A DNA stretch of 42,757 nt from Candidatus Methanophagales archaeon (GTDB lineage Archaea; Halobacteriota; Syntropharchaeia; Alkanophagales; Methanospirareceae): NCBI GenBank assembly GCA_014859735.1, contig JACUTR010000003.1, forward strand, positions 1 to 42,757. Reading direction: 5' to 3'. Position numbers and translations under genes: made by a program. A model generated the notes under the pieces. The model worked only from the letters and a program-made list of their open reading frames with translations. It ran no database searches and was not told the origin of the DNA. This document shows, piece by piece, positions 2,596 through 41,206 of the stretch (position 1 is its first letter; every line of letters begins with the position of its first letter).

Positions 2596-2652
2596 GGGAA
2601 GGTTGGCATTATTGTAAGAAAGGGTTTTTTCATAGGTGAAGTGAGAGAAGCC

Positions 2653-3513
2653 ATGACCAAAAAGAAAGCGTGCGTTGTGGGTATAGGCGTGATGGGGAAT
2701 GGATTAGCGCAAGTATGTGCTCAGGCGGGCTACGATACCTCTGTGGTCAGCCGGAGTGAAGAATCGTTAGAGCGCGGCATTGCAAAGATAAAAGGCAATC
2801 TGTCGTTCCTCGTGAAGAAAGGGCATATGCAGCAAGAGGAGGCGGATAAAATCGTCGATGCGCTCCGTGCACGGGCGACAACGAGCCTTGAAGAGGGTGC
2901 GAAAGGGGCTGATTTTGTAATAGAAGCGGTATATGAGGATTTAGTCCTGAAAAAGGAGCTATTCAGAGAGTTGGACAGGATTTGTCCCGAGCATACGATT
3001 CTCGCAAGTAACACCTCTACCTTTCCTATCGTTGCTTTAGCTACCGTAACAAAAAGACCGGATAAGGTAATTGGAACCCATTTCATGAACCCCCCACCGT
3101 TCATACAGGGTGTAGAGATAATAAAATCATTATTTACCTCTGAAGACACGGTAAATCGAACGAAGGAGTTCGTAAAGTCGTTGGGCAAGGAGCCGATTAT
3201 GGTCAAGGATTCACCGGGGTTCGTCGTGAGTCGCATGATCTGCCTTGTTATGAACGAAGCGGTGAGGATGCATGAAGAGAGTGTCGCATCGGTTGAGGAC
3301 ATCGATAAGATCGCGCGATTATGTTTTAACTGGCCCATCGGTCCTTTTCAGCTTCTGGACTTGATCGGGATCGACATTGTGGCAGCGGTGCTCAATGCGA
3401 TGTACGATGAGACCGGGTGGGAGCGATTCAAGCCATCGCTTCTTATGGTGCAGATGGTACGAGCGGGCTGGACCGGCCGAAAAGCAGGGAAAGGGTTCTA
3501 TGACTATCCGTAA
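2653..3513 (+). CDS. 3-hydroxyacyl-CoA (3-hydroxybutyryl-CoA) dehydrogenase
   Basis: N-term Rossmann KACVVGIGVMGNGLAQVCAQAGYDTSVVSRS, ILASNTSTFPI, GTHFMNPPPFIQGVEII, DSPGFVVSRM, C-term GRKAGKGFYDY. GTG 2641 is an alternative start. Confidence 0.93.
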   Translation: MTKKKACVVGIGVMGNGLAQVCAQAGYDTSVVSRSEESLERGIAKIKGNLSFLVKKGHMQQEEADKIVDALRARATTSLEEGAKGADFVIEAVYEDLVLKKELFRELDRICPEHTILASNTSTFPIVALATVTKRPDKVIGTHFMNPPPFIQGVEIIKSLFTSEDTVNRTKEFVKSLGKEPIMVKDSPGFVVSRMICLVMNEAVRMHEESVASVEDIDKIARLCFNWPIGPFQLLDLIGIDIVAAVLNAMYDETGWERFKPSLLMVQMVRAGWTGRKAGKGFYDYP

Positions 3514-3561
3514 GCAAGACGTGCGTGTTGAGCTTTTAGCTGGTGCTCAAGCTAACAATCA

Positions 3562-4344
3562 ATGACCGAAGAAAAGGAATATATATCGTATAAGAAGCAG
3601 GAACGTGTAGCAACGATAACGCTTAACAGGCCGAAATCGTTGAATGCGTTGAACACCGCTTTGTTGACTGAGTTAAAAGATACATTAGAGGATGCAGAAG
3701 CAGATGCTGAAGTGCGTGTAATTGTCATAACCGGCGCGGGAGAGAAAGCGTTCTGCGCCGGTGCTGATGTAGCAGAGATACGTGATAAGAATCCTGAAGA
3801 AGCGCGTGCGTGGTCACAGTGGGTTCAGGGGGTACTCACCTTCATCGAACGAATGAAGAAGCCAGTAATAGCAAAGATACACGGGTTCTGTTTAGGTGGT
3901 GGGTTAGAACTTGCATTGGCATGTGATTTCAGGATTGCGTCAGAGAAGGCGATATTCGGCATGCCGGAAGTAAATTTGGCGATTATTCCGGGTGGCGGTG
4001 GTACTCAACGATTACCGAGATTGATCGGGAAGACGAAAGCGCTGGAACTGCTGATGACCAGTGAGCAGATAGATGCTGCAGAAGCGGTTCGGTTAACGCT
4101 TGTGAATACTGTTGTTCCTGCGGCTGAACTTGACAATGAGATTGATGAGCGTATCAAAAAGCTGCTCTCAAAAAGTCCTGTTACGCTTGCTATACTCAAG
4201 GATGCAGTGAATAAAGGTATTGAAATGGACCTGGAGCGTGCCTTACAATATGAAGCGGAATGCTTCGAATCCGTGCTGAAGACTGAGGATGCACGAGAAG
4301 GGCTTAAAGCGTTTCTGGAGAAACGGAAGCCGGATTTTATTTAG
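3562..4344 (+). CDS. Enoyl-CoA hydratase/isomerase (crotonase family)
   Basis: ATITLNRPKSLNALN, GAGEKAFCAGADVAEI, GFCLGGGLELALACDFRIASEKAIFGMPEVNLAIIPGGGGTQRLPRLIG. Confidence 0.94.
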   Translation: MTEEKEYISYKKQERVATITLNRPKSLNALNTALLTELKDTLEDAEADAEVRVIVITGAGEKAFCAGADVAEIRDKNPEEARAWSQWVQGVLTFIERMKKPVIAKIHGFCLGGGLELALACDFRIASEKAIFGMPEVNLAIIPGGGGTQRLPRLIGKTKALELLMTSEQIDAAEAVRLTLVNTVVPAAELDNEIDERIKKLLSKSPVTLAILKDAVNKGIEMDLERALQYEAECFESVLKTEDAREGLKAFLEKRKPDFI

Positions 4345-8689: not shown

Positions 8690-9232
8690 ATGCCACCACA
8701 TTGCGATACCATGGATGGCCCTGTCGTCATGGCTGCGAAAAGGGCCCTGGAAACAGGGAACGTTAATCTTATACTCCCCGGGATGCCGAAAAAAGCTGAG
8801 GATGAATTGAAGAAAGCTTTTGAAAGAACTCTTCGCGTAAGAGAATCAGGTGCGGAGGCGATGGAACTCGCGGACTATTGGTTCTTTGAAACCGCTGTTC
8901 GGTTACACCGGGAAGGAGAAGGAGCGCCTTATACCGGACTGAAACCTGCGGGACTTGATTGGGGTCCTGTAGTGCCAAGAGCAGAAAAAGCCATCGAACA
9001 GGGGAGCGCCAAAGAGGTAATTGAGTTCTTGCAACATATCGTTGAAGAAGAGCTGCGAGAGAGGTTCAGACATGCAGTGGCTAAGAAGAAGTACGATGTA
9101 AATGATGTGGATGCCGCAAGGGAGTTCGTGCAGGCGATGCTTGGATTTATACTCTATTCGCATCACCTGTATGAATACGTAAAAGGCGGCGGAGAACACG
9201 GCGAGGAAACAATGGGCGGACACGAACAGTAA
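8690..9232 (+). CDS. DUF6448-like protein
   Basis: MPPHCDTMDGPVVMAAKRALETGNVNLILPGMPKKAEDELKKAF; TATA-like gatatataaa at 8641. Confidence 0.75.
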   Translation: MPPHCDTMDGPVVMAAKRALETGNVNLILPGMPKKAEDELKKAFERTLRVRESGAEAMELADYWFFETAVRLHREGEGAPYTGLKPAGLDWGPVVPRAEKAIEQGSAKEVIEFLQHIVEEELRERFRHAVAKKKYDVNDVDAAREFVQAMLGFILYSHHLYEYVKGGGEHGEETMGGHEQ

Positions 9233-9396: not shown

Positions 9397-10197
9397 ATGA
9401 AGAGAGTAAAAAGAAAAATTATCAAGATTGATGAGGATTTATGTGATGGCTGTGGAATTTGCATCCCAACGTGCCCCGAACAAGCAATCCAGATTGTTGA
9501 TACGCCTGAAGGGAAAAAAGCAAGGTTGGTGAAAGAGTTTTACTGTGATGGTCTTGGTGCGTGTCTCGGTTCCTGTCCAACCGGAGCATTAACGATTGAA
9601 GAACGAGAAGCGGAACCTTACGATGAAGAGGCAACAATCGCTCGAATTAAAGGGACAGCACCTGAGATGTTGGAAGAACATCTAAAACATCTTAAGGAGC
9701 ATGCACAGGAATTACCTGAACATCACGGACATAAACTGCCGAAAGGTGTAACAACCTGTCCTTCCGCCCAGATGCTTCGGTGGGCAGAGAAGGAGGAGAA
9801 AGTAGCTAAAGAACCCGTGAAACTCCGCTCAGAATTACGGCATTGGCCTATACAACTGCATTTAGTTCACCCATCTGCTCCTTATTACCAGAATGCAGAC
9901 TTAGTTATAGTTGCTGATTGCGTTCCTTTTGCCTACGCCAATTTTCACGAGGATTTTCTGAAGGGTAGGGTGATCGCTATTGGCTGTCCAAAACTTGACG
10001 ACATCGAGGCTTATGGGGAAAAAGTTAGGCAGCTAATTGAAATAGCAAAGCCCCGCAGTATAACAATCGTACACATGGAAGTCCCCTGCTGTTTTGGTTT
10101 TGGAAACATTGTCCGGCAAGCACTGAGAGAAGCTCGGACGAGGAAGAAAATTCCGCTTGAGGATATAATAATAAGTATAACGGGTGAAAAATTGTGA
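9397..10197 (+). CDS. 4Fe-4S dicluster ferredoxin-domain protein of the type often adjacent to hcp
   Basis: CDGCGICIPTCPEQAI and YCDGLGACLGSCPTGALTIEEREAEPYDEEA; C-term VIVADCVPFAYANFHEDFLKGRVIAIGCPKLDD, MEVPCCFGFGNIVRQAL. Confidence 0.9.
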   Translation: MKRVKRKIIKIDEDLCDGCGICIPTCPEQAIQIVDTPEGKKARLVKEFYCDGLGACLGSCPTGALTIEEREAEPYDEEATIARIKGTAPEMLEEHLKHLKEHAQELPEHHGHKLPKGVTTCPSAQMLRWAEKEEKVAKEPVKLRSELRHWPIQLHLVHPSAPYYQNADLVIVADCVPFAYANFHEDFLKGRVIAIGCPKLDDIEAYGEKVRQLIEIAKPRSITIVHMEVPCCFGFGNIVRQALREARTRKKIPLEDIIISITGEKL

Positions 10198-10249: not shown

Positions 10250-12154
10250 ATGGAAGAGAATAGGATTTCTTACCACGAATCTGTTCGGAGGGTGTACGAG
10301 CGAATCAAAAAGGATAACATGGACAATATTTGGGATCGCTATGTGGCACAGGGTTTTGGGGGCGATCCTGATAGGAGATGTCCCTTCTGTCAGGCAGGAG
10401 TTCGGTGTGACTTATGTTCAAACGGGCCTTGCCGTGCAGATGCATCACTAAACAAGAAGGGTGTTTGCGGCATTACGGCGGATGGCATGGCTATGCGGAT
10501 GATGCTGCTGAGAAACGTGATGGGGGCATCCACGTACCACTATCACACCGATCAGACCATCAAGACTCTTCGGGCAACCGCACAGGGTCAAACACCATTC
10601 AAAATTAGCGAGTCTGAAAAATTGAAGGATTTTGCAGGGCGGCTTGGGGTAAATACCGCAGGATCAGAGAATGAACTTGCTATTCGGCTCTGTGATTTTG
10701 TGGAAGCCGATTTTAACCGGAAGTACTATGAACCGAGTCATATTGTAGAGATCTTAGCGCCACAGGAGCGTAAAGAAGCGTGGAAAAAACTGGATATTTT
10801 CCCCGGCGGGATTTACGGCGAGATGATGCTGGCCACAAGTTCGTGCCTGACTAACGTCGATGGTTACTACGTGAGCTTGGCGCTCAAGGCCATGCGTCTC
10901 GCGGTGGCAATGGCGTATCAAAGCCAGATTGTTAATGAGTATTGTCAGGATATCCTCTATGGGATACCAAATCCACATAAGATGCGGGTAGACCTCGGCG
11001 TGCTGGAGCCCGACTATGTGAATGTGCTGCCCAATGGCCATGAACCGTTCCTTGGGTTTGCTATGGTTCAACTTGCTCGAAAACCGGAATGGCAGGAAAA
11101 GGCACAAGCCGTTGGTGCCAGAGGATTGCGTGTCATTGCGAACATTGAGACGGGTCAAGAGATGATTCAGCGCTGGGAGATGGATGACGCATTTTACGGG
11201 TTCACCGGGAACTGGCTTATGCAAGAGGCGGTTTTTGCCAGTGGCTGCGTGGATCTTTTCGCCGCTGATATGAATTGTTCGATGCCTATTGACCCTTTAT
11301 ACGCTCGAAAATATAAGTTCAGACTCGTGCCGTTAAGTGAGTTAGTTGCCTTTGAAGGCATTACCGATCGGATCAACTATGAGCCTGAAAAGGCTGAAGA
11401 CCAGGCAGCTCGACTCTTGCGGATGGCGATCGATAACTTTAAAGAACGTAGAGCATATGTCGAGGCGGTTACCCAACTACCCATGAGAGAAGCTTTGGTT
11501 GGCTTTTCTACCGAAAGTATTCTAAAAGCTCTTGGCGGCACTCTCGACCCGCTCTTAGAAGCGCTCAAAGAGGGATCGTTGCGAGGGTGCGCAGGCCTTG
11601 TCTCATGCACGGCGCTGAGGGATTCAGGTCAGGATGTACACAGTGTCCGGATAGCAAAGGAGCTTATTAAACGTGATATCCTGGTGCTCTCAATGGGCTG
11701 TGGCAACGGAGCCATGCAAGTCGCGGGTCTCTGTACTCTCCAGGCGAAAGAATTTGCCGGCGCAGGTCTTAAAGGACTTTGTGAGAACCTGAATATCCCC
11801 CCAGTTCTCAGCTACGGAACCTGCACGGACACAGGACGTTTGGCTGACCTTTTGGCTGCAATCTCAAATGCGTTGGGAGGCGTGCCTCTACCAGATCTCC
11901 CGGTTGTTGCGGCAGCACCTGAATATATGGAACAGAAGGCGACCATTGACGCCGTCTTCGCGGTGGCTCTGGGACTCTATACGTATGTCAATCCTGTACC
12001 GACGGTTACGGGGGCACCACAGTTGGTCAAACTCTTCACTCAGGACTGCAAACAGCTAACCGGTGGTCTGCTGAATGTTGAAAGAGATCCAATCAAAGCA
12101 GCAGATGCCATGTTAGCACACATAGAAGCGAATCGAAAGAAAATAGGGATTTAA
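10250..12154 (+). CDS. CooS-family (anaerobic CODH-like) catalytic subunit homolog with divergent C-cluster motif
   Basis: RCPFCQAGVRCDLCSNGPCRAD...KKGVCG; NGHEP; DMNCSMP; LVSCTALRDSGQDVHSVRIAKELIKRDILVLSMGCGNG; YGTCTDTGRLADLLAAISN; APEYMEQKATIDAVFAVALGLYTYV. The usual GICCTGNE is replaced by NIETGQE. Confidence 0.92.
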   Translation: MEENRISYHESVRRVYERIKKDNMDNIWDRYVAQGFGGDPDRRCPFCQAGVRCDLCSNGPCRADASLNKKGVCGITADGMAMRMMLLRNVMGASTYHYHTDQTIKTLRATAQGQTPFKISESEKLKDFAGRLGVNTAGSENELAIRLCDFVEADFNRKYYEPSHIVEILAPQERKEAWKKLDIFPGGIYGEMMLATSSCLTNVDGYYVSLALKAMRLAVAMAYQSQIVNEYCQDILYGIPNPHKMRVDLGVLEPDYVNVLPNGHEPFLGFAMVQLARKPEWQEKAQAVGARGLRVIANIETGQEMIQRWEMDDAFYGFTGNWLMQEAVFASGCVDLFAADMNCSMPIDPLYARKYKFRLVPLSELVAFEGITDRINYEPEKAEDQAARLLRMAIDNFKERRAYVEAVTQLPMREALVGFSTESILKALGGTLDPLLEALKEGSLRGCAGLVSCTALRDSGQDVHSVRIAKELIKRDILVLSMGCGNGAMQVAGLCTLQAKEFAGAGLKGLCENLNIPPVLSYGTCTDTGRLADLLAAISNALGGVPLPDLPVVAAAPEYMEQKATIDAVFAVALGLYTYVNPVPTVTGAPQLVKLFTQDCKQLTGGLLNVERDPIKAADAMLAHIEANRKKIGI

Positions 12155-12266
12155 GCCGGGATGAATCGTGGAAGGAGGAGTGGAACGACCGGTCCACACG
12201 TACGATGATAAATCTTAATCCAGTTGTTTATTTACCTTATATATCTAATTAATCGGTGTGGATCCA

Positions 12267-12545
12267 ATGGCTCTGGTGCACATTAAAGGAACGAAGAAAG
12301 GGAAGGTTATTCTCTATGCGTTAAGCACCTGCGTCTGGTGCAAGAAAACGAAGAAGCTGCTCACGGAATTAGGCGTGGATTTCTACTACGTATATGTCGA
12401 CTTACTGGAAGGAGAGGAGAAAGCAAAAGTTTTGGATGAGATAGCGCGTCATAGTTCTGTTCGCTCCTTTCCCACACTCGTGATTGAGGATAAAACGTGC
12501 GTCGTCGGCCATCAGGAGAGGAAGATCCGGGAGGTTTTAGGATGA
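12267..12545 (+). CDS. Glutaredoxin-like protein
   Basis: [35 protein letters not shown]...[32 protein letters not shown] active site. Alternative GTG at 12258. Confidence 0.88.
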
Positions 12546-13048
12546 TGAATGATGCTAACGTAACGAATGATGAGGTTCAGAAGCTTTATACACGCTTGGA
12601 TAATGAGGCTGAGGCGTCAGGATACCATCTGAATCCCGATGGTGAACACACCAGGGATTTGGTCAGAGGACTGCTTATAAACGAGAAGCGATACGGATAC
12701 TGGGCATGCCCCTGCAGGTTGGCTTCGGGCGATAAAGAGGTGGATCTTGATATCATCTGTCCCTGTGATTATAGAGATCAGGATGTAGAGGAATACGGCG
12801 CCTGCTATTGTGGACTTTATGTCTCAGAGGATGTTCTCGAGGGCAAACAGAGTGTAGAACCTATACCTGAACGGCGGCCACCACCTGAGGAGAGGAAGAG
12901 GGCAGAGCAAGTACCCCCCGCAGTATCCTCACTATCGCTCCCAGTCTGGAGATGCCGCGTATGCGGCTACCTCTGTGCACGAGAGGGGCCTCCTGGAGTG
13001 TGCCCCATCTGCAAGGCGAAAAAGGACCGGTTTGAACGGTTCATATAG
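12542..13048 (+). CDS. Ferredoxin:thioredoxin/disulfide reductase catalytic subunit fused to a C-terminal rubredoxin-like domain
   Basis: [44 protein letters not shown] (CPC..CPC..CYC motifs) then [36 protein letters not shown] overlap with glutaredoxin stop. Confidence 0.92.
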
Positions 13049-13116: not shown

Positions 13117-15549
13117 ATGGCAGAAGGACGTAAAAAGGCTGAACTCAAGATTTCAGGAATGACGTGTGCGACCTGCGCTACGACTATTGAAAAATCCCTC
13201 CTGAGCAAAGGCGGTGTTGCTGATGCGCAGGTGAATCTTGGAACTGAGAGTGCCACCGTGGAGTATGATCCGACACAAGTACGACTTACTGACTTAGAGA
13301 AAGCGGTAACCGATGCAGGGTATGGCGTGATACATGAAAGAGTAACGCTGAGGGTCGGGGGAATGACCTGCGCCATCTGTGTGAAAACAATTGAAGACAC
13401 GCTCACAAGACTGGATGGAATCACGGGCGTTACGGTTAATCTCGGTTCTGAGAAGGCGTACGTTACCTACAATCCACGAATAACAACGATAGCCGAGATG
13501 AAGCAAGCAATTGAAGACGTGGGCTATCAGTATCTCGGGGTGGTGGGAGAAGAAGCAGAAGATGCAGAGAGAGTCGCGCGCGAGAGGGATTTACGAGAAA
13601 AGCGCAATCGGTTCATCGTTGGATTTGCCATCGGTATCCCGCTCATGATTCTCATCTATCTTCCGGTCCGCTTTCCATTTCCAATGGCGTATTTTATGCT
13701 GGTTGTTTCGGCTCCGGCTTTTATCTATGTAAGCCACCCGATATTCGGCGCAGCCTATCGTTCTCTTAAACATAAGAATCTCAACATGGACGTCATGTAC
13801 TCGATGGGGATCGGTGTTGCGTTTGTCTCAAGCCTTTTGGGTACGTTTGGGGTTATACTTACCGGGGAATTCCTGTTTTATGAGACCGCACTTCTCCTTG
13901 CCTCGTTTCTTACGATAGGACGGTATTTGGAAGCACGAGCAAAAGGGAAAACTTCTGAAGCGATTAAACGATTGATAGGGTTACAACCAAAAACCGCCAC
14001 GGTTATTCGTGATACCCGCGAACTGGAAATACCCCTGGAGGATGTTCAAATCAATGACCGAATAGTCGTTAAACCGGGAGAGAAAATCCCGGTCGATGGT
14101 GAGGTTATTGAGGGTGAGAGCTATGTAGATGAATCAATGATTACGGGAGAGCCTATTCCCGGTTTGAAGCAGAAAGGTGATGGTGTTGTTGGTGGAACGC
14201 TCAACAAAAACAGCGTACTCACCTTCATCGCGACAAAAATAGGGCGGGAGACGGTACTCGCTCAAATCATCAAGCTTGTGGAAGATGCACAGGGCTCAAA
14301 ACCCCCGGTTCAACGAATTGCGGATAAAGCCGTGAGCTATTTCATTCCGGCAGTCTTAACCATCGCACTTCTTTCCTTTGCCGTATGGTATTTTGTTATC
14401 GGCAATACGCTCCTTTTCTCCCTTACCGCCTTGATTGCGGTGCTCGTTATCGCATGCCCCTGCGCCCTCGGGCTCGCAACACCGACTGCAGTAACAGTAG
14501 GCGTTGGTCGTGGGGCAGAACTTGGCGTTCTCGTCAAGAGCGGGGAAGCCCTGGAAATATCAGAGAGACTGACAACGATAATCTTTGATAAAACGGGGAC
14601 GCTGACCAAGGGAAAGCCAGAGGTCACCGATATAATCGGTACAGGAATCGACGCTCGAACGTTGCTCACGTTGGCGGCAAGTGTTGAGAAGAATTCACAG
14701 CACCCACTCGCAGAGGCGATTGTGAGACGAGCAGAGGAACGGGGTATTGAGCTGGAGGAGAGCGAAGGGTTTGACACCTTTGGCGGAAAAGGTGTAACAG
14801 CACACGTTGCGGGGAAAGAGCTGCTTATAGGGAATAGAATACTTTTTGAAGAAAGAGCTATCTCATACCCGGAAGAGGTTGAGGAACAGATCGTTCGCCT
14901 TGAAAAGGAAGGAAAGACGGTCATACTCATCGCTCGTGATAACGAAATGAGTGGTATTATAGCCATTGCGGACACCCTGAAGGAAAGCACAAAAGAAGCA
15001 ATCAAAGCGTTCAAGGACATGGGGCTGAATGTCGTCATGATTACGGGTGATAATGCACGGACTGCGCACGCGATTGCGGGGCACATCGGCATAGAACGGG
15101 TATTAGCTGAAGTCTTACCTCAGGATAAAGCTGAAGAAGTGAAGAAACTGCAAGAAACCGGAGAGGTGGTAGCCTTCGTGGGTGATGGTATCAACGATGC
15201 ACCTGCACTTGCACAGGCTGATGTAGGTATCGCAATCGGTAGTGGGACGGACGTGGCAATAGAGAGTGGTGAAATAGTTTTGATAAAGGACGATCTTATG
15301 GACGCTGTTTCCGCAGTGCAGTTGAGTAAGAAAGTGATGTCGAGGATAAAGCAGAACTTATTCTGGGCTTTTGCATATAATACCGCACTCATTCCTATGG
15401 CAGCAGGAATACTCTATCCCTTTTTTGGTATCACGTTTAAGCCTGAGCTTGCGGGGCTTGCCATGGCTTTGAGTTCCGTAACGGTCGTAACGCTTTCCTT
15501 GATGTTGAAGAACTATATACCGCCCGCAAAGAGGGGTGAAAAAAAATAG
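13117..15549 (+). CDS. copA: Cu+-type heavy-metal P1B-ATPase with two HMA domains
   Basis: [95 protein letters not shown]. Confidence 0.95.
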
Positions 15550-40690: not shown

Positions 40691-41206
40691 TCATTCATCT
40701 TCGTATTCTCTTGCAGAAAAGAGAGAATCTCGATAGAATACCAATTCATAGTCAATAATTTCACCATCTCGCGTTGCTTTATAAGGTAAATCACCATGTG
40801 AGAACTCACTTATCCGTGTGGCATTCATAGTAGAATATCGTGCTATATCCTCATCGATAATCTTTAATTCGTTTCCGGTGAGTAAATCCAATTGAGGTTC
40901 TTTAAGTGAGATATATCGGTGTTGAGTATATTTTCCTATCCCGATATCACAAATCTCGACTTTATCTTCGTCTTCGAGTTCTTTTACTACTCTGTCGAAA
41001 TGGACTGGAGCTGGTCCATGTTCCAATTTACGATAGCTCTCCCCGGTCAACGGCTCTTCAAACAGCTCATAATAATCGAAATCCAAGAAATAGAGTATTT
41101 TGAATAGTACCGTCTTACCCACGTTCTCCAAATGGCCACATTTATAGATTACATAATGTAAAACCTCTTTAAATTTTTCCATATCAAATTTTACATCCGT
41201 CACCAT
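40691..41206 (-). CDS. Panacea-domain (DUF4065, SocA-like) protein, possible antitoxin
   Basis: FKEVLHYVIYKCGHLENVGKTVLFKILYFLDFDYYELFEEPLTGESYRKLEHGPAPVHFDRVVKEL. Confidence 0.82.
   Translation of the reverse strand: MVTDVKFDMEKFKEVLHYVIYKCGHLENVGKTVLFKILYFLDFDYYELFEEPLTGESYRKLEHGPAPVHFDRVVKELEDEDKVEICDIGIGKYTQHRYISLKEPQLDLLTGNELKIIDEDIARYSTMNATRISEFSHGDLPYKATRDGEIIDYELVFYRDSLFSAREYEDE

Follow-up and report, generated by a model that had tools for sequence, protein, structure and literature searches.

A predicted CooS-V type hybrid-cluster enzyme in an ANME-1 archaeon and its linkage to a ferredoxin family that also accompanies hcp

Judged by its sequence, the gene at positions 10250-12154 of the window, by which we mean the whole stretch of 42,757 nucleotides analysed here, encodes a new member of a kind of enzyme already described, namely the CooS-V type (structural group D-1), in which a protein of the Ni-CODH fold is predicted to house a hybrid cluster. 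What looks new is its neighbourhood rather than the kind of enzyme: the gene adjoins that of a ferredoxin whose family is common to CooS-V and hcp, a link of which we found no prior mention in the open-access literature searched. Recent papers describe as open both what CooS-V and clade D enzymes do and which donor supplies class I Hcp with electrons (PMC13056359, PMC10210160), in part for want of a recognised, consistent gene neighbourhood. From the shared ferredoxin family come a candidate donor and a candidate role, both of which can be tested.

Family, active site and phylogenetic position

The gene and its diagnostic positions are as follows.

10250..12154 (+): predicted CooS-V type (structural group D-1) hybrid-cluster enzyme of the Ni-CODH fold, 634 aa (translation, profiles, tree, alignment, structure search)
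10379..10408 (+): type III D-cluster motif C44-x2-C47-x5-C53, predicted subunit-bridging [2Fe-2S] (translation, alignment)
11147..11149 (+): codon of Glu300, which replaces C-cluster Cys295 and corresponds to CooS-V Glu295 (translation, phmmer, alignment)
11930..11932 (+): codon of Glu561 (in EQKAT), corresponding to CooS-V Glu556 and D. vulgaris HCP Glu494, second hybrid-cluster carboxylate ligand (alignment)

The frame opens with ATG and is full length. Its closest solved relative by phmmer is CooS-V of Carboxydothermus hydrogenoformans (7b7q, 690 bits; next CODH, 389 bits), and the CooS-V structures 7b9a and 7b7q also come first in a structure search with an AlphaFold model of moderate quality (pLDDT 73, pTM 0.79, shallow alignment), which served for fold ranking only and not for ligand geometry. 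Since CooS-V is the best match by both sequence and fold, and all tested features of group D-1 are present (the features that define it, among them the Glu295 change and the type III D-cluster, come from PMC6344411), we assign the protein to the CooS-V type. Hcp models reach only 19-21 bits, with TIGR01703 at 19.1 bits against a cut-off of 360.8.

An initial annotation, made from the DNA letters, had proposed that the C-cluster cysteine is replaced by glutamate, and translation together with the phmmer alignment confirms this. Residue 300 is Glu, within RVIANIETGQEMIQRW, and the segment NIETGQE aligns to SIESGQE in CooS-V (7b7q) and to CCTGNE in canonical CODHs. A cysteine displaced by a few residues, which would have spoken against the proposal, is not found: none lies within 30 residues on either side of Glu300, the nearest being 232 and 333, so that the C-cluster cysteine is absent rather than shifted. 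The same annotation had regarded the other landmarks as intact, which holds for the histidine and the four remaining C-cluster cysteines (His264, Cys343, Cys453, Cys484, Cys525) but not for DMNC and EQKAT, where 14 canonical homologues read Q-C and S/T/A-x-K. As Asn342 and Glu561 are features of CooS-V, these two motifs support the hybrid-cluster reading. The divergent D-cluster motif that had been pointed out (CPFCQAGVRC) is real and matches the known type III D-cluster; its C53 also opens the B-cluster motif (C53, C56, C61, C73).

Residues were surveyed across about 150 aligned homologues, a few of them duplicate contigs. Position 300 is Glu in 114/114 close and 19/19 more distant homologues covering the site, far beyond chance, and in every site-covering homologue more than 45% identical; it is Cys in all 14 canonical CODHs. 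Three positions beyond those in the initial annotation switch together with Glu300, namely the second Glu ligand Glu561, Tyr96 (in place of the acid-base His93) and Asn342. About 130 homologues show no variation at any of these positions, where the canonical rows carry Ser/Thr/Ala, His and Gln. In CooS-V, Glu556 corresponds to the hybrid-cluster ligand Glu494 of D. vulgaris HCP, and Asn337 hydrogen-bonds to a cluster water (PMC9311411). Aligned to CooS-V, the full hybrid-cluster ligand set of two Glu, one His and four Cys is present, and by analogy the cluster is probably held by His264, Glu300, Cys343, Cys453, Cys484, Cys525 and Glu561.

A few homologues depart from this pattern in other ways. 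One D-1 member from the same order (L050, G118) breaks with the published Glu295-Cys41 correlation: its C-cluster position holds Glu, yet its D-cluster is type II-like (CKFGEQGLCC). A deep-branching homologue (L052, G029; about 41% identical) carries Asp instead of Glu (MDTGQE) and keeps Glu at the 561 position, and could be an intermediate or a separate variant. In-frame stops occur in D-1 cooS genes as one TAG in L028/L090 (G022) and one TGA in G115:C12, and could reflect pyrrolysine read-through, error or decay.

A maximum-likelihood tree, one of the checks the annotation had suggested, places all Glu/Asp rows opposite the canonical CODHs (support 100/100). The query falls in a subclade of 34 rows on a long stem (100/100), which is sister to a small clade containing CooS-V (95/96). 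Across a full-length alignment at about 50% identity, the ANME-1 protein shares with CooS-V (7b7q, 7b9a) the Cys295-to-Glu change, the second Glu ligand, the Tyr replacing the acid-base His, the Asn before the Cys338 ligand and the type III D-cluster with its bridging [2Fe-2S]. It differs in belonging to this separate subclade, in a 5-residue insertion ahead of the D-cluster cysteines and in its linkage to an FrdX-like ferredoxin. With Hcp of classes I to III it shares the ligand set and, for the subclade, the FrdX-like ferredoxin as a gene neighbour; unlike Hcp, it has a CODH fold with D- and B-clusters rather than the Hcp domain layout, and scores below the TIGR01703 cut-off.

Gene neighbourhood and the ferredoxin family

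The gene lies in a run of six on one strand, of which the other members are listed here.

8690..9232 (+): DUF6448 protein, first of the run (family match; association not kept in other loci)
9397..10197 (+): FrdX-like ferredoxin, 266 aa, two Fer4 [4Fe-4S] motifs, proposed electron donor (Fer4 matches, conserved Cys, gene linkage)
12258..12545 (+): glutaredoxin-like protein (family match; adjacency in three ANME-1 relatives, L054, L075 and L076)
12542..13048 (+): ferredoxin:thioredoxin reductase catalytic chain fused to a rubredoxin domain (best PDB match 4tpu)
13117..15549 (+): CopA-like P-type metal ATPase with two metal-binding domains (GMTCATC/GMTCAIC) and a CPC motif (sequence)

The ferredoxin gene directly upstream is the one whose relatives recur most. 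No other gene neighbours the subclade as often: 20 of 80 loci have such a relative within 3 kb, in each case on the strand of CooS, and the other 75% lack it as a neighbour. The pairing spans several archaeal and bacterial phyla, with the ferredoxin upstream in some and downstream in others. Most CooS-V genomes checked hold a single copy, two Methanosarcinaceae genomes with the enzyme have none, and none was seen at the 14 canonical CODH loci examined, whose flanks were shorter. The C-terminal domain of the ferredoxin has conserved Cys175, His184, Cys197, Cys231 and Cys232, possibly a third metal site; this half has no Pfam match, and a weak AlphaFold model (pTM 0.46) gave no PDB match reaching E 0.001. 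In ANME-1-THS, the FrdX-like gene beside CooS-V (L094, 6104-6870) is split over two frames, through either assembly error or early decay.

The same ferredoxin family is found beside hcp. Among Halobacteriota, 8/29 homologues have hcp no more than 1.3 kb away, where 0.13 would be expected (Poisson P ~2e-12, relatedness ignored), and in Desulfobacterota hcp adjoins 15 of the 30 best ferredoxin homologues, as it does at L218 and L220. The ferredoxin beside hcp was named frdX by Rodionov and colleagues (PMC545781, PMC1274295), and the Desulfobacterota homologues occupy its position in published NO-responsive hcp-frdX operons. We call the product of 9397-10197 FrdX-like on the basis of this hcp-adjacent position and of homology. 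NO induces hcp and frdX about 200-fold in C. difficile, where knockdown of either causes NO sensitivity (PMC12915319).

The CooS loci thus resemble the hcp-frdX operons under HcpR control in Desulfovibrio and Clostridioides difficile in that the ferredoxin adjoins a hybrid-cluster enzyme, and differ in that CooS-V stands where hcp would. A dehalococcoidial locus (L130) has, on one strand, a CRP/FNR-type regulator (its class read from sequence, without a family-model score), a Zn-ribbon gene, the ferredoxin and CooS-V, an order in which CooS-V takes the place of hcp. Zn-ribbon and cupin genes, like the ferredoxin family, accompany hcp. Cupins recur near the CooS subclade in 17 loci and Rrf2-family regulators in 7, directly upstream in WOR-3 loci; no HcpR was identified in the ANME-1 archaeon. 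The Zn-ribbon protein is small, Cys-rich and starts with CPGQ; it occurs with the ferredoxin at many hcp and some CooS-V loci (e.g., L219, 2251-2982) and has no NCBIfam match.

The remaining genes of the run are of narrower distribution. Three relatives, each from the family or genus of the host, keep glutaredoxin, FTR-rubredoxin and CopA beside CooS-V. As universal partners glutaredoxin and FTR-rubredoxin were rejected, being found near CooS otherwise in two Lokiarchaeota only, and so was DUF6448, which is missing from the other loci examined. A P-type ATPase follows CooS in several Methanosarcinaceae as well.

Proposed function and competing readings

By homology to CooS-V, the ANME-1 enzyme would be a homodimer with an Fe/S/O hybrid cluster that has lost Ni and CO chemistry. 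CooS-V of C. hydrogenoformans, which carries the same Cys-to-Glu change, contains an Fe/S/O cluster but no Ni and is inactive towards CO; it reduces NH2OH slowly and opens a channel upon reduction (PMC9311411). The annotated expectation that this CooS homologue carries a hybrid-type cluster and is probably no CO dehydrogenase is supported by sequence, phylogeny and a solved homologue. The further suggestion of a redox or NO stress enzyme is less secure, and gains support from the hcp-associated ferredoxin family adjoining CooS.

Gene linkage is what leads us to infer an electron donor and a biological role. We see an even chance that the enzyme is an Hcp-like reductase of small nitrogen oxides, driven by the FrdX-like ferredoxin and protective in role. 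In such a scheme, the ferredoxin with its two [4Fe-4S] clusters would feed low-potential electrons to the bridging [2Fe-2S] D-cluster, which would pass them to the [4Fe-4S] B-cluster and then to the hybrid cluster. This redox-restructuring Fe/S/O cluster would replace the Ni,Fe C-cluster in the homodimeric CODH fold and, once reduced and reached through a channel that opens on reduction, as in CooS-V, could reduce NO or hydroxylamine-like species. Glutaredoxin and the ferredoxin:disulfide reductase/rubredoxin would probably add thiol repair to this redox-stress unit.

A role outside nitrogen oxides, whether as a low-potential redox sensor or regulator or as a reductase of peroxide, O2 or sulfur species, comes close behind, because NO reduction by CooS-V was not above background and its hydroxylamine turnover is slow (kcat 0.13 per s, measured with an artificial electron donor). 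With potentials about 300 mV below those of HCP, this low activity may mean that the natural substrate is different. Sensing and regulatory roles have been proposed for clade D, and the downstream glutaredoxin and disulfide reductase, the P-type ATPase and the recurrent cupins would suit thiol or metal stress. On the other hand, the ferredoxin family and the Zn-ribbon and cupin genes also accompany hcp, the electron chain and the complete hybrid-cluster ligands are retained as in a reductase, and no signalling domain that would mark a sensor is found in 10250-12154.

That the protein is still a Ni-CODH, with Glu300 substituting for Cys295, is very improbable. It does share with CODH-II, CODH-IV and the D. 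vulgaris and Thermococcus enzymes the fold, the B-cluster, five of six C-cluster ligands and the base Lys563, and it scores above the cut-off of TIGR01702, the NCBI anaerobic CO dehydrogenase model. However, it lacks the Cys295 ligand and the acid-base His93 that define canonical Ni-CODHs, to which it is 29-36% identical, and the changes Cys295 to Glu, His93 to Tyr and Ser to Glu561 occur together and without exception throughout the D-1 homologues. A C295E variant of CODH-II is Ni-deficient and inactive, CooS-V itself has neither Ni nor CO activity, and none of the identified CooS neighbours was recognisable as a CooC, CooT or CooJ nickel gene. In genomes of ANME-1, Asgard, Chloroflexota or Methanosarcinaceae, such cooS genes should not be read as a sign of CO metabolism. 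Decay into a CODH-derived pseudo-enzyme, to which a broken ferredoxin frame on a related ANME-1 contig (L094/L074) and internal stops in a few homologous genes might point, is the most improbable reading given the full-length open frame, the invariant cluster ligands and 75-87% identity across phyla and domains.

Spread of the subclade and the host genome

A genome scan found 414 encoded relatives of CooS, the best 80 of which are 75-87% identical. Among these 80, archaeal hosts comprise Methanophagales (ANME-1-THS), Asgard groups, Bathyarchaeota, Thermoplasmata, Hadarchaeum, Methanofastidiosum and Methanosarcinaceae, and bacterial hosts Chloroflexi/Dehalococcoidia, WOR-3, Desulfobacteria, Actinobacteria and an anammox lineage. 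Identity this high between domains suggests that the subclade was transferred repeatedly, in a sample drawn mostly from MAGs, where some short contigs may be mis-binned and several relatives sit in whole-chromosome assemblies.

More tentatively, and with a greater chance of failing than of holding, the subclade may be a CODH-derived functional counterpart of Hcp: an FrdX-driven nitrosative-stress reductase, spread between archaeal and bacterial phyla, that uses the ferredoxin module of hcp (FrdX, Zn-ribbon, cupin, Rrf2 or CRP/FNR regulator) and stands in for hcp where it is lacking, for example in this ANME-1 archaeon, in whose genome no Hcp was detected. Mutual exclusion of CooS-V and Hcp was considered and rejected as a rule: the two do not overlap within the family of the host, but this zero overlap was estimated not to be significant, and many Methanosarcinaceae carry both.

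The host is a methane-oxidising archaeon whose nearest named relative in the scan is Methanophagales archaeon ANME-1-THS, and its genome encodes MCR. A second Prismane/CODH-family protein (824 aa, contig C132) is taken to be the CdhA subunit of CODH/ACS. Elsewhere in the window, beta-oxidation-type genes of this ANME-1 genome, for 3-hydroxyacyl-CoA dehydrogenase and then enoyl-CoA hydratase, occupy 2641-4344, and a SocA/Panacea-domain protein, a possible antitoxin, is encoded at 40691-41206.
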